NCBI GenBank assembly: GCA_026400435.1
Contig: JAPLOZ010000095.1
Location: forward strand, 1 to 64,000
Direction of reading: 5' to 3'
DNA from: Hyphomicrobiales bacterium
GTDB taxonomy: Bacteria; Pseudomonadota; Alphaproteobacteria; Rhizobiales; Rhizobiaceae
Length of the DNA: 64,000 nt
Shown: piece after piece, positions 48,945 through 53,399 of the stretch
Layout: the number at the start of each line of letters is the position of its first letter
Position numbering within the stretch: the stretch's first letter is position 1
Position numbers and translations under genes: made by a program
Notes under the pieces: model-generated
Told to the model about the DNA's origin: nothing
The model's input: the letters and a program-made list of their open reading frames with translations, nothing else
Databases searched by the model: none

Positions 48945-51140
48945 ATGAAAGACGATTCGCGCAAGGCACAGGGAACTGTGCGTTCGGCGCCCGTGCTGGT
49001 GCCAATGCCCGCCGAGCGACCCTACACCTATGCCGTGCCCGACGGCATGCATGTCGTTCCGGGTTCCATTGTGCGCGTGCCGCTTGGTCCCCGCGAGGTC
49101 GCCGGCATCGTCTGGGACTGCGATGCCGGGGACGTCGACCCGAAGAAGCTGAAGCCGATTTCGCAGCTATTCGACTGTCCGCCCATCGACCGGGAAACCC
49201 GGCGTTTCGTCGATTGGATCTCGACCTACACGCTTGCCGCACCCGGAATGGTTGCCCGCATGCTCCTGCGCGCGCCCGCCGCGTTCGATCCCGAGCCGTG
49301 GACGGAGGGTCTGCAGCGTACCGAAGCCGTTCCCGACCGGATGACCGCAGCCCGCGCCCGCGTGCTTGAAGCATCCCGTGACGGCTTTGCCTGGACGCGC
49401 TCGGGGCTTGCCCACGCGGCCGGCGTGTCTTCCACCGTCATTGACGGTCTGCGCGATCAGGGTGTGTTCGAGACGGTCATGATTCCGCCGCGTCCCGTCG
49501 TCGCCGAACCCGACACCAGCTATGCGCAGCCGGAACTTTCGCCCGACCAGCAGGCAGTGGCCGACATGCTGCGCGCGGCGGTGGAAAAGGGCGGCGCGGC
49601 GGTGACGCTGGTCGACGGCGTCACCGGCTCCGGCAAGACCGAGGTCTATTTCGAGGCGGTGGCCTCGGCGCTGGATAAAGGCCGTCAGGTGCTGATCCTT
49701 TTACCTGAAATTGCCCTGACGCACGCCTTTCTGGAACGCTTTCAGGACAGATTTGGCGCCAAACCGGCCGAATGGCACTCGGATCTGCCTCCGCGCATGC
49801 GCGAGAAGGTATGGCGTCAGGTGGCAGAAGGGTCTGTGCGTGTGGTGGCCGGCGCGCGTTCGGCGCTTTTTCTGCCGTTTCAGGAACTCGGGCTGATCGT
49901 CGTCGACGAGGAGCACGACCCGGCCTACAAGCAGGAGGACCGCGTCTCTTACAACGCCCGCGACATGGCGGTGGTGCGCGGACGGATCGGCGGCTTTCCG
50001 GTAGTCCTGGCGTCGGCGACACCCTCGATCGATAGCCGGGTCAACGCGGATCAGGGCCGTTATGCCCGCGCGATGCTGCCGGCGCGGTTCGCGGAAGCTG
50101 CGCTGCCCCACCTGCAGACGATCGACATGCGCCGTGCACCGCCGGCGCGCGGCGGCTTCCTGTCGCCGATCCTGATTTCACAGATCCGGCGGACCCTCGA
50201 GCGCGGCGAGCAGTCGCTGCTCTTCCTCAACAGGCGCGGCTACGCGCCGCTGACGCTGTGCCGGGTCTGCGGTCACCGCTTCCAGTGCCCTGACTGTTCG
50301 AGCTGGCTGGTCGAACACCGCTTCCGGGGGCAACTCGTCTGCCATCATTGCGGACACCACGAAAAGCGCCCGGACGCCTGCCCGGAATGCGGCACGTTCG
50401 ACCATCTCGTCGCCTGTGGGCCGGGCGTCGAGCGTGTAGCGGAAGAAGTCGTCGGCCATTTCCCGGACGCCCGCACCATCGTGCTGTCGTCCGACCTGCT
50501 CGGCGGCGTGCGGCGGCTTAGGCTGGAACTCGACGCCATCGCCAATGGCGACGCCGACATCGTCATCGGCACGCAACTCGTGGCCAAGGGCCACAATTTC
50601 CCGGATATGACGCTGGTCGGAATCGTCGACGCGGATCTCGGGCTCGCCAATGGCGATCCCCGCGCGGCAGAACGGACGTTCCAGCTGCTCAGCCAGGTCA
50701 CCGGCCGCGCCGGCCGAACCGGCAAGAAGAGCCTGGGGCTCTTGCAGACTTTCCAGCCCGATCATCCGGTCATGCGCGCAATCGTGTCGGGCAATGCAGA
50801 GGCATTCTATCAACGGGAGATAGCCGAGCGCGAAAAGTCCGGCCTGCCGCCGTTTGGCCGGCTCGCCGGCATCATCGTCAGCGCCGCCACGCGCGCCGAG
50901 GCCGAAAGTCACGCTCGCGCCATCCGCCGCGCCGCGCCCGCAACGGCCGACATCCAGATGCTTGGCCCCGCCGAAGCGCCGCTGGCGCTGCTGGCCGGCC
51001 GCCATCGCTTCCGCCTCCTGGTGCATGGCGGGCGTCGTTCCGACATGCAGAGCTACATCAAGGCTGTCCTGTCGGACGGACCGAAAGTGCGCGGATCGGT
51101 GCGTGTCGCCGTGGACATCGATCCGCAGAGCTTCTTGTGA
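48945..51140 (+). CDS. priA: Primosomal protein N' (replication restart helicase)
   Basis: PriA reloads the replicative helicase at stalled forks. It has 731 residues: an N-terminal DNA-binding domain (APVLVPMPAERPYTYAVPDG), a helicase core with Walker A GVTGSGKTEVYF, the DEEH box in VVDEEHDPAYKQED, and a zinc region CRVCGHRFQCPDC with CHHCGHH and CPECG. GTQLVAKGHNFPDMTLVG and QVTGRAGRTGKKS are later helicase motifs. ATG at 48945. Confidence 0.95.
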   Translation: MKDDSRKAQGTVRSAPVLVPMPAERPYTYAVPDGMHVVPGSIVRVPLGPREVAGIVWDCDAGDVDPKKLKPISQLFDCPPIDRETRRFVDWISTYTLAAPGMVARMLLRAPAAFDPEPWTEGLQRTEAVPDRMTAARARVLEASRDGFAWTRSGLAHAAGVSSTVIDGLRDQGVFETVMIPPRPVVAEPDTSYAQPELSPDQQAVADMLRAAVEKGGAAVTLVDGVTGSGKTEVYFEAVASALDKGRQVLILLPEIALTHAFLERFQDRFGAKPAEWHSDLPPRMREKVWRQVAEGSVRVVAGARSALFLPFQELGLIVVDEEHDPAYKQEDRVSYNARDMAVVRGRIGGFPVVLASATPSIDSRVNADQGRYARAMLPARFAEAALPHLQTIDMRRAPPARGGFLSPILISQIRRTLERGEQSLLFLNRRGYAPLTLCRVCGHRFQCPDCSSWLVEHRFRGQLVCHHCGHHEKRPDACPECGTFDHLVACGPGVERVAEEVVGHFPDARTIVLSSDLLGGVRRLRLELDAIANGDADIVIGTQLVAKGHNFPDMTLVGIVDADLGLANGDPRAAERTFQLLSQVTGRAGRTGKKSLGLLQTFQPDHPVMRAIVSGNAEAFYQREIAEREKSGLPPFGRLAGIIVSAATRAEAESHARAIRRAAPATADIQMLGPAEAPLALLAGRHRFRLLVHGGRRSDMQSYIKAVLSDGPKVRGSVRVAVDIDPQSFL

Positions 51141-51210
51141 ACGGTCATGGCGGTACGGTCGTCGCCGATGCACCAGCACGCCTGAAGCGCTGCGGATCAA
51201 TTGTGTGCTG

Positions 51211-51852
51211 TCAGGCGGCCTTTCTCAGGGCCGTCAGGGTCGAGTCGGCCCGGCTCCAGGCATCGGTCGCCCGCATGGCGTCGAAGTAGCGGTTGATATT
51301 GGCGAAGCGCGACCAGTCGAAGTCGATGGCGTCACGATATTTTTCCAAGCAGATCATCGCATAGTCCGCCAGGGTTACGCCGGAACCGACAAGCGTTGCG
51401 CGACCCTCGAGACGGCCGTCGAGGACCGGCGCATAACGGGCGATCTCCTGCAGGCAGAAGTCCATAAGGTCCTTGCTGGGTGGAGCAAATCCGAACTTCG
51501 GCTTTATGACGCTTTCGAACACCACAGTGCCGAATGCCCGGTTGAAATGCGCCAGTTCCCAGAACTGCCAGCGCAGGACGTCGGCGCGAACCACCGGATC
51601 GGCGGGGAAGAGCGACGACCCGCCCGCCTTCTCCACCAGGTAGATGTTGATGGCGTTCGATTCCCAGAGCGTGACGTCGCCGTCAACCAGGACCGGCACC
51701 ATCGCGTTCGGATTCAAGGCGACAAATTCCGGCCTGGTCGTATCACCGCTGGCGAAGTCCAGCCCTGTGATCTCCGCCTTCAAGCCAAGATGATTGAGGA
51801 CTGCGACGACCTTGCGCGAATTGGGTGAACCGGGAAGTGTATAGAGTTTCAT
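51211..51852 (-). CDS. Glutathione S-transferase
   Basis: This 213-residue cytosolic GST has an N-terminal thioredoxin fold (MKLYTLPGSPNSRKVVAVLNH with a likely catalytic Ser/Asn and VPVLVDGDVTLWESNAINIYL for glutathione) and an alpha-helical C-terminal domain (about 88-210). GAGGAG precedes the ATG. Its promoter mirrors that of the divergent sigma factor gene, so it is probably a target of that factor in a stress response. The substrate is unknown. Confidence 0.9.
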   Translation of the reverse strand: MKLYTLPGSPNSRKVVAVLNHLGLKAEITGLDFASGDTTRPEFVALNPNAMVPVLVDGDVTLWESNAINIYLVEKAGGSSLFPADPVVRADVLRWQFWELAHFNRAFGTVVFESVIKPKFGFAPPSKDLMDFCLQEIARYAPVLDGRLEGRATLVGSGVTLADYAMICLEKYRDAIDFDWSRFANINRYFDAMRATDAWSRADSTLTALRKAA

Positions 51853-51880
51853 GACCGAACTCCTCTTGTTGGGGTCGCGC

Positions 51881-51912
51881 TGAAGACGAAAGCCATGGCA
51901 AAAAGGATTCCC
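51881..51912 (-). promoter_or_regulatory. ECF-type promoter of the GST gene
   Basis: On the minus strand GGGAATCC (51912-51905), 16 bases, CGTCTTCA (51888-51881), 28 bases before the GST ATG. The -35 is identical to that of the divergent sigma factor promoter. Confidence 0.65.
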
Positions 51913-51933
51913 GTCTAAACAATTTTGGTTTGC

Positions 51934-51965
51934 GGGAATCCTTTGGGCTGGACGAAACGTCTAAG
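51934..51965 (+). promoter_or_regulatory. ECF-type promoter of the sigma factor gene
   Basis: GGGAATCC (51934-51941), 16 bases, CGTCTAAG (51958-51965), 33 bases before the sigma factor ATG. This -35/-10 style is that of extracytoplasmic function sigma factors, suggesting self-activation. Confidence 0.65.
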
Positions 51966-51998
51966 CGAAACCGAACAAGGAGTTCGGGGGAGCAAGCC

Positions 51999-52901
51999 AT
52001 GCCAAGTGCACTACCTCTTACAGACTTTGAAGAGCTGGCCCGTACCATGCGGCCGAAGCTGCATCGCTACTGCTCACGCATGGCGGGCTCGTCGATAGAC
52101 GGCGAGGACATCGTCCAGGACGCCTTGCTCAAGGCGACGCAGGCGGGCATGGACGCAACGGTCGCCGATCCCGAGGCGTGGCTGTTTCGCATTGCCCACA
52201 ACGCCGCCATCGATTTCTTGCGTCGCAGAGTGCGCCTGCAGGCGATTTCCGTCGAGCAACGCGACGAAGAGGCGGTCGCCGACCCCAATGACGAGGTTGG
52301 GCGCCACGAAATTGCGGCCATGGGACTGCGCCCATTCATGAAGCTGTCGCCGGCGGAGCGCAGCAGCGTCATCCTGATGGACGTCATCGGCTATTCGGCG
52401 CGTGAAGTCGGCCTGATCATGAACGCAACGACACCGGCGGTGAAGGCCGCGCTGCACCGTGGTCGAACGCGGTTGGCCTCGCTCGGCGCGCAGGAGCAAA
52501 GCGAGGATGCGGTCGAGCTGTCGGAGCGCGAACATGAGCGCCTGGCGCACTATGTGGACCGGTTCAACGCGCGCGACTTCGACGCCGTGCGAAAATTGCT
52601 CGCTGAAGACGTTCACCTGGAAATCGTCGGCCGCATGGAGCTTCGCGGCAAGCGCGAGGTTGAGCGCTACTTTGGCAACTACGGAAGCCGTTTCGACTGG
52701 CAGCTTGCGGTCGGAGCGATCGAGGGACGTCCCGCCGTTCTGTTGCGAAACACAAGCGGAGAAGGCAGCAAGCCAACCAACTTCATCCTGCTCGAATGGC
52801 AGGCCGACAGCATAACCAGCATCAGGGATTTCCACTACACCGCCTACGTCCTAGAATGCGCGCTGGCTGGACCGTCCACCCCCTCGCCGGCCGCGCAATA
52901 A
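51999..52901 (+). CDS. ECF-like sigma factor with a SnoaL-like C-terminal domain
   Basis: This 300-residue RNA polymerase sigma factor has region 2 at about 10-80 (IDGEDIVQDALLKA, WLFRIAHNAAIDFLRRR) and region 4 at about 112-160 (LSPAERSSVILMDVIGYSAREVGLIM). It continues with an extra domain at about 175-285 (ERLAHYVDRFNARDFDAVRKLLAED) of the SnoaL/NTF2-like fold. Such fused domains regulate the sigma factor in place of a separate anti-sigma protein. The DGGGR-type motif of the ECF41 group is not visible. GGGGGAG and the ATG at 51999 set the start. It is divergent from a GST gene. Confidence 0.88.
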   Translation: MPSALPLTDFEELARTMRPKLHRYCSRMAGSSIDGEDIVQDALLKATQAGMDATVADPEAWLFRIAHNAAIDFLRRRVRLQAISVEQRDEEAVADPNDEVGRHEIAAMGLRPFMKLSPAERSSVILMDVIGYSAREVGLIMNATTPAVKAALHRGRTRLASLGAQEQSEDAVELSEREHERLAHYVDRFNARDFDAVRKLLAEDVHLEIVGRMELRGKREVERYFGNYGSRFDWQLAVGAIEGRPAVLLRNTSGEGSKPTNFILLEWQADSITSIRDFHYTAYVLECALAGPSTPSPAAQ

Positions 52902-53000
52902 GCGCCACTGGACGACGGGACCGGCGAATTTGCGCCGCGGGGTTCTTGACTTCCGCCCCGGGCGCCAGTCCATTTGATGCGGGCGCGCGAGGGTGACGAT

Positions 53001-53399
53001 ATGGAGTTCGCATTTCCATGGCCGGTGACGCAGGGAGAATGGCTGGCCTGGTGTTCAGCCGCCGTCACCGCGTTTCTCGGCGCAATCCTGCTGTTTGCGC
53101 CCGGCATCTCGTTTCGCTTGTTGAGGCTGCAGCCTAGACCCGAGCGCCCGGAAGCTTATGCCGCCGCCCGCGCCAACATGGCGGGCTTCTATCTTGGACT
53201 TGGCCTCTGCTGCCTTTTCCTCGGTCCCCAGCCCTTTCTTTACCTGGCGCTGGGATGCTCGTGGCTGATCACTGCTTTCGGCCGCATCGTTTCGATGATG
53301 TCCGACCGTGGCACCGGCCTGTCCAACTGGCTTTGGCTGGTCTTTGACATCGTGCTGGCGGGGCTCGCCCTTGCCTTTGCGCTGAGCTTCGTTCCCTGA
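53001..53399 (+). CDS. Four-helix membrane protein, DUF4345-like
   Basis: This 132-residue protein has four hydrophobic segments (about 14-35, 60-78, 80-98 and 108-130). ARANMAGFYLGLGLCC and GRIVSMMSDRG resemble the DUF4345 family of small membrane proteins with no known role. GAGGGTGA precedes the ATG at 53001. It follows the sigma factor gene after 99 bases on the same strand and may share its transcript. I see no terminator between them. Confidence 0.65.
   Translation: MEFAFPWPVTQGEWLAWCSAAVTAFLGAILLFAPGISFRLLRLQPRPERPEAYAAARANMAGFYLGLGLCCLFLGPQPFLYLALGCSWLITAFGRIVSMMSDRGTGLSNWLWLVFDIVLAGLALAFALSFVP

Follow-up and report, generated by a model that had tools for sequence, protein, structure and literature searches.

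Why should a gene for an ECF sigma factor and a divergent gene for a glutathione S-transferase (GST) share a 146-bp gap that carries the same promoter-like box on each strand, and what would read those boxes? We addressed these questions for a locus in the window (the whole 64,000-nucleotide stretch analyzed here), for which a sequence-only reading had proposed mirror-image ECF promoters with an equal N16 spacing, leaders of about 30 bases, and a 12-mer forming an inverted repeat. These elements were all located in the gap (Table 1). GGGAATCC-N16-CGTC runs from 51934 to 51961 on the plus strand, where TAAG follows, and from 51912 to 51885 on the minus strand, where TTCA follows, while the 12-mer CGGGAATCCTTT occupies positions 51933-51944 and 51913-51902, respectively. 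Counted from CGTC to the ATG, the leaders measure 37 nt for the sigma factor gene and 32 nt for the GST gene. The full element common to both strands is GAATCCTTT-N13-CGTC, and the mirror-image pattern is stronger than had been claimed. The interval between the two boxes has an AT fraction of 0.56, versus 0.37 for the locus. Both boxes look like divergent ECF-type promoters. They also differ, as had been suggested, from the TGTCACA element described for ECF41 (PMC3426412), since TGTCAC is absent from both strands of the gap.

Table 1. Positions of the features discussed for the GST-sigma factor locus, numbered from the first letter of the window
Feature	Position	Strand	Basis or remark
GST gene, 213 aa, presumed divergent target	51211..51852	-	GST_N 4e-17, GST_C 2.8e-9
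GST-side promoter (predicted), GAATCCTTT-N13-CGTC	51885..51910	-	-35 = 51910-51902, -10 = 51888-51885
A/T-rich interval between the two -35 boxes, 25 bp, UP-element-like (putative role)	51911..51935	.	
Sigma-side promoter (predicted), GAATCCTTT-N13-CGTC	51936..51961	+	-35 = 51936-51944, -10 = 51958-51961
ECF sigma factor gene, C-terminal SnoaL-like domain, 300 aa	51999..52901	+	Pfam, NCBIfam, AlphaFold2
Sigma4 recognition-helix segment, K149-R156	52443..52466	+	Residues 151/153 vary with -35 base 3
SnoaL/NTF2-like domain, residues 172-287, presumed ligand-binding	52512..52859	+	Pfam, structure matches
DUF4345 membrane protein gene, resident upstream of atpH	53001..53399	+	Outside the GST-sigma factor unit

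We compared the regions upstream of related sigma factor genes pooled from GTDB species contigs (L003-L037), alphaproteobacterial genomes (L089-L094), a paralogue in the same genome (L058), and the window. The GTDB contigs had yielded 54 loci, of which 35 were used and 19 weaker or partial ones (L038-L056) stood outside the promoter counts; removal of L026 and L090, near-duplicates of L024 and L008, left 41 loci, which were scanned on both strands up to 1500 bp upstream. At least 7 of the 9 bases of GAATCCTTT, followed by CGTC exactly 13 bases on, occurred in 27 of the 41 loci (37 sites), whereas any other gap from 6 to 23 gave 0 to 3 loci each, the next best tetramer at gap 13 gave 3 loci, and a control region downstream of the sigma factor start gave 2 sites at gap 13. 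With a stricter 8/9 match, 18 of the 41 loci were retained. An unbiased count of gapped 5-mer/4-mer pairs placed TCCTT-N14-CGTC and CCTTT-N13-CGTC at the top on the plus strand (16/41 loci each), although GC-rich patterns outranked both when the two strands were counted together. The complement control for this count held the motif in disguise, and the claim of conservation rests on the gap and tetramer controls.

Eight of 11 records of plasmid-borne relatives were also used (H3 repeats H2, and H6 and H7 resemble H5). Four of the eight carry a box that matches at least 7 of 9 bases, the site sequence being identical in L131 and L132; three carry the variant GATCCGTTT (6/9) at N13, and one has no box. 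When this variant is admitted, 36 of 46 loci have a plus-strand box and 10 have none by the criteria used. Across the 36 loci, the consensus reads G-A/c-A/T/C-T/C-C-N-TTT-N13-CGTC, in which box base 5 and the first two T's do not vary. The box accompanies SnoaL-sigma factor genes in Acidobacteriota and other groups as well as in alpha- and betaproteobacteria. Three loci without the CGTC box (L018, L033, and L036) have GCATCCTTT or GTATCTTTT with CGTT at the 13-base gap, a different -10 end.

Back-to-back boxes were observed in 11 loci (the window, L003, L004, L006, L007, L011, L012, L091, L092, L093, and L126), the minus-strand box of L011 being a weak match (6/9). The divergent gene encodes a GST in five of them (the window, L003, L007, L091, and L093), an MFS transporter in L004 and L011 as judged by reading of the sequence, an ABM-like protein of ~100 aa in L012 and L092 (the L012 score is under the Pfam cut-off, and L092 was assigned by resemblance), a glyoxalase-fold protein in L006, and, by annotation, a hypothetical protein in L126. 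The GSTs that adjoin the sigma factor in L003 and L007 are 66.8% and 62.5% identical to the window GST, and these two loci fall in one clade with the window (SH-aLRT, 100). In L003 and L007, the two orthologous GST-sigma factor regions found, both boxes are kept at N13, as the sequence-only reading would predict.

The interval between the boxes is richer in A+T than its own locus in 9 of the 11 divergent loci; the exceptions, L006 and L093, have intervals of only 12 and 10 bases. The 18 bases just upstream of the plus-strand box are A+T-richer than their surroundings in 18 of 25 single loci and in all 11 divergent loci, although in L006 and L093 the opposite box reaches into these bases. Such a stretch has the look of a putative UP element. 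The -35 to -35 distances in the 11 loci are 10, 12, 22, 22, 24, 24, 24, 25, 25, 25, and 35 bases. Helical phasing of these distances (R of 0.68, P = 0.005 for 11 loci; R of 0.64, P = 0.06 when each clade contributes a single value) is not claimed. Across the family as a whole, the neighboring genes encode GST, ABM, EthD, glyoxalase-fold, SDR-like, SRPBCC-like, and MFS-like proteins, the SDR, SRPBCC, and MFS labels having been given by reading of the sequences. Since the neighbors vary, no single substrate is implied, but their nature suggests that the signals may be reactive or toxic organic compounds.

Whether the sigma factor itself reads the box was approached through covariation. Loci have A, T, or C at box base 3, and in a scan of all alignment columns, residue 153, in the sigma4 recognition helix, was the one most associated with this base (normalized mutual information of 0.62). 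Q153 pairs with T at base 3 in 10 of 10 cases, and H151 pairs with C in 5 of 5. In our alignment, residue 153 adjoins an arginine that presumably corresponds to R186 of Mycobacterium tuberculosis SigH. SigH R186 reads G-34 (PMC6411747). A rule set beforehand on residue 153 alone held in 5 of the 7 box-bearing plasmid loci but not in the other 2; all 7 fit once H151 was added after the fact. For the scan and the tree, L132 (the same as L131), L019, and L025 were dropped as well, and for L029, which has two boxes, the scan took the less likely one, whose base 3 is the same. The base-3 covariation rests on ~3 independent changes, and tree contrasts amount to 1 to 2 independent pairs. In addition, the top columns for box bases 2, 4, 6, and 9 fall in the SnoaL domain and that for base 1 falls in sigma2, a sign that common descent by itself can produce links of this kind. 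The base-3 covariation is suggestive of recognition of the box by this sigma factor and falls short of proof.

We also asked how often the element occurs elsewhere. In the assembly that contains the window (3,878,522 bases, 87.6% complete), exact GGGAATCC-N16-CGTC occurs twice, both times in this gap, and the reversed pattern does not occur; the whole-genome scan that the sequence-only reading had called for thus confines exact copies to the two gap sites. With up to two mismatches, GAATCCTTT-N13-CGTC gives 70 matches in this assembly versus 34 for the reversed pattern: 2 are exact (both in this gap), 2 have one mismatch, and 66 have two. Of the 68 non-exact sites, 28 were located, and 27 of these fall within open frames of 100 aa or more, although such a position is weak evidence against function when the DNA is GC-rich. 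Across 20 sigma-bearing genomes, GAATCYTTT-N13-CGTC has 24 sites, 19 of them at the sigma factor locus, against 2 for the reversed pattern, and exact matches are missing from 7 of the 20 genomes. Each of the five exact sites elsewhere falls within an open frame or straddles one, and two of them are one sequence in an apparent repeat. In 60 relatives without a sigma factor match at 1e-40, there are 8 sites versus 6 for the reversed pattern.

By these counts, the predicted promoter is private to the sigma factor locus, where most exact copies lie. Since the exact sites cluster there, the switch would be expected to act on its own operon and the divergent gene. In the two-sided stress regulon proposed earlier, "regulon" accordingly means the locus itself. 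A wide regulon is disfavored, given that the 27 of 28 near-match sites and the five exact off-locus sites coincide with open frames.

The sigma factor matches Sigma70_r2 in Pfam, scores 25.6 bits against a cut-off of 25.7 for Sigma70_r4_2, and passes the ECF (group IV) superfamily model TIGR02937 (61.4 bits; cut-off, 42.9). SnoaL_2 scores over its cut-off, which bears out the C-terminal SnoaL-like domain that had been recognized from the sequence. An AlphaFold2 model built on a 34-row alignment has a mean pLDDT of 84.4 and a pTM of 0.64. DGEDIVQD and similar peptides, which look invariant in the family alignment, also served as search seeds, and their invariance is partly a product of that selection. 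The top PDB match of the model is SigG1 of Streptomyces tsukubaensis (7qh5; Foldseek E, 4.8e-13; 28% identity; Z, 14.2, with an rmsd of 12.7 over 197 residues), followed by M. tuberculosis SigJ (Foldseek E, 7.5e-9). The large rmsd (~18) of the Foldseek matches points to domains that are placed differently or whose placement is uncertain. For residues 172-287, the matches are NTF2-like folds, including ketosteroid isomerases and epoxide hydrolases (Z, ~11). As modeled, the SnoaL domain has a ligand-pocket fold, and the fold by itself shows no function. In agreement with the earlier reading, no recognizable anti-sigma gene stands beside the sigma factor gene in the window.

This combination invites comparison with known ECF groups. 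Like ECF41 (SigJ, Ecf41Bli, and Ecf41Rsp), as described in PMC3426412, the window sigma factor joins an ECF core to a C-terminal SnoaL-type domain, has no recognizable adjoining anti-sigma gene, and has a conserved predicted promoter of its own with CGTC at -10. According to the same source, the fused domain of ECF41 is regulatory and the sole detectable targets are at its own locus. Unlike ECF41, for which TGTCACA-N16-CGTC is given (PMC3426412), the window has GAATCCTTT at -35, and the family of the window sigma factor has a two-way promoter in 11 loci. The protein motifs WLPEP, DGGGK, and NPDKL occur in 0 of 34 aligned family members, the window sigma factor included. DGGGK is a C-terminal motif of ECF41. 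WLPEP, in the linker, and NPDKL, at the C terminus, are likewise ECF41 motifs (PMC7730460). Against the SigX4-type model TIGR02957, which we take to stand for ECF41, the window sigma factor scores 83.1 bits, below the cut-off of 323.25. It would work like ECF41, yet it has neither the ECF41 promoter nor the ECF41 motifs.

By structure match, the nearest solved relative is SigG1 (ECF56), and the best-scoring models are SigX5 TIGR02960 (125.2 bits; cut-off, 264.75) and PRK08241 NF006089 (137.2 bits; cut-off, 240), which presumably stand for ECF56; both scores are below cut-off. According to PMC7730460, however, the SigG1 promoter is CCG / CCCTCC with 17-bp spacing, a clear ChIP peak for SigG1 is missing from its own promoter, and SigG1 has an anti-sigma factor, RsfG. 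The conserved element in the window is GAATCCTTT-N13-CGTC rather than an ECF56-type promoter; CCG alone is too short to score. Next to the window sigma factor gene stands DUF4345, which is resident at the site, and, since SigG1 has a separate anti-sigma factor, an unlinked or unrecognized one is conceivable here.

ECF294, with a representative from Herbaspirillum hiltneri, is also described as an ECF with a SnoaL-like C-terminal extension (PMC8999054). The window sigma factor may belong to this group. H. hiltneri is a betaproteobacterium. A GGAAT -35 core is shared with ECF26 (GGAATA) and SigH/SigR-type factors (GGAAY) (PMC6180224, PMC6411747, and PMC11588781). Unlike the elements of these groups, the present box has a nearly invariant TTT after the core and CGTC at one fixed distance, and the window sigma factor has a SnoaL domain and no recognizable adjoining anti-sigma gene. 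The literature searched yielded no report of this promoter or of the two-way design, and no paper in it brought a SnoaL-type ECF sigma factor together with a GST or with ABM; the motif may nevertheless have been published, most likely in the ECF reclassification (10.1093/nar/gkaa1229).

The setting of the locus was examined in the atpH-atpA loci of 29 relatives, taken with 1500-bp flanks so that priA was sometimes outside the view. A DUF4345 match precedes atpH in 15 of the 29, including all three same-genus genomes, whereas none of the 29 loci has a GST or sigma factor match. The small membrane protein gene noted downstream of the sigma factor gene is real, but its membership in the unit is rejected, since DUF4345-atpH occurs in relatives without the sigma factor gene. 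Between priA and DUF4345, two same-genus genomes each hold a different gene, methyltransferase-like by reading, and the third has an unrelated open frame before DUF4345. The interval at ~51139-52999 (priA to DUF4345) is a variable site that differs in each of these three relatives. The GST and sigma factor genes appear to have been inserted as a pair between priA and DUF4345-atpH, probably by horizontal acquisition. None of 60 near relatives has a sigma factor match at 1e-40. With at most six candidates scored per genome, 7 of 385 alphaproteobacterial genomes have a match, the present one included. In the class of G455, 1 of 369 genomes has a match, namely, G455 itself. The SnoaL-ECF sigma factor family is rare among the genomes searched. 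The paralogue in the same genome (L058, on C38) is a SnoaL-ECF sigma factor with 43% identity and GATCCGTTT-N13-CGTC upstream; it seems to share an operon with an EthD-domain gene and, by reading, an alpha/beta-hydrolase-like gene. SnoaL-ECF sigma factors also reside on very large plasmids of Rhizobium, Neorhizobium, and Roseateles (L126-L133). In Roseateles sp. XES5, the sigma factor gene stands behind annotated ABM and EthD genes and converges on an encapsulin/Dyp-peroxidase pair.

Taken together, these results make it likely, in our judgment, that the locus encodes an ECF sigma factor that is self-contained and regulates itself, its private bidirectional promoter driving both the sigma factor gene and the neighboring detoxification gene. 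The SnoaL domain would keep the basal sigma factor inactive or unstable until a small molecule, perhaps an electrophile, bound the SnoaL/NTF2-fold domain and turned the sigma factor on. Holoenzyme containing it would then read GAATCCTTT-N13-CGTC and fire both ways from one short A/T-rich core, into the sigma factor gene on the plus strand and into the GST gene on the minus strand, and firing on the sigma side would amount to positive feedback on sigma factor synthesis. The two boxes, their conservation in the family, and the concentration of exact copies at the locus are seen in the sequence, whereas we infer that the boxes are promoters, along with recognition by this sigma factor, the feedback, the SnoaL domain as sensor, the electrophilic signal, and a role in stress. 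By analogy with the fused domain of ECF41, on/off control is most likely the function of the SnoaL domain.

The boxes do admit other readings. The inverted repeat AAAGGATTC-N25-GAATCCTTT is a good palindrome whose A/T-rich center could be the spacer of a binding site, and it might therefore be the operator of an ordinary transcription factor, with CGTC incidental. However, the box stands on a single strand in most box-bearing loci, still with the 13-base gap, and inverted copies lie anywhere from 10 to 35 bp apart. CGTC is moreover kept at exactly 13 bases (27 loci, with no other tetramer or gap exceeding 3), and we consider an operator highly improbable. Recognition by another ECF sigma factor of the cell, of which the SnoaL-sigma factor would be a passenger target, fares slightly better, given that the genome has the paralogue at 43% identity and that GGAAT-type -35 elements are read by other ECF groups, such as ECF26 with GGAATA (PMC6180224). 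Nevertheless, the box accompanies SnoaL-sigma factor genes from alpha- and betaproteobacteria to Acidobacteriota and others, stays near the reversed-control level in the 60 relatives without the sigma factor gene, and is replaced by a different box, GATCCGTTT, at the paralogue locus, all of which makes this arrangement unlikely.

A variant of the favored explanation would make the SnoaL domain merely a structural part of the sigma factor, with control exerted transcriptionally or by an unlinked anti-sigma factor. Removal of the full domain abolishes SigJ activity and SigG1 has the anti-sigma factor RsfG (PMC7730460), but the window sigma factor has no dedicated neighbor, DUF4345 being a locus resident, and the fused domain is regulatory in ECF41 (PMC3426412). 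We regard this variant as rather doubtful, if clearly more plausible than recognition by another ECF sigma factor. Returning to the autoregulated sigma factor with its private promoter, we can tentatively extend it to a hitherto unrecognized type of horizontally mobile, one-protein, ligand-gated ECF switch, a possibility that we would rate short of even. Such a switch would combine an insulated two-way promoter, in the sense of two -35 boxes on one common A/T tract, with a divergent payload gene exchanged between genomes (GST/MFS/glyoxalase/ABM) and with residues 151/153 that set -35 base 3.

How the SnoaL extension contributes to regulation in ECF56, ECF205, ECF294, and ECF295 is described as yet to be worked out (PMC8999054). 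With the present analysis, a SnoaL-type ECF outside ECF41 gains a defined, if predicted, promoter, candidate target genes, and a testable self-switching logic. Since the promoter has hardly any other copy in the genome, the sigma factor and its promoter could serve as an orthogonal expression pair. The divergent genes hint at what the SnoaL domain may sense.
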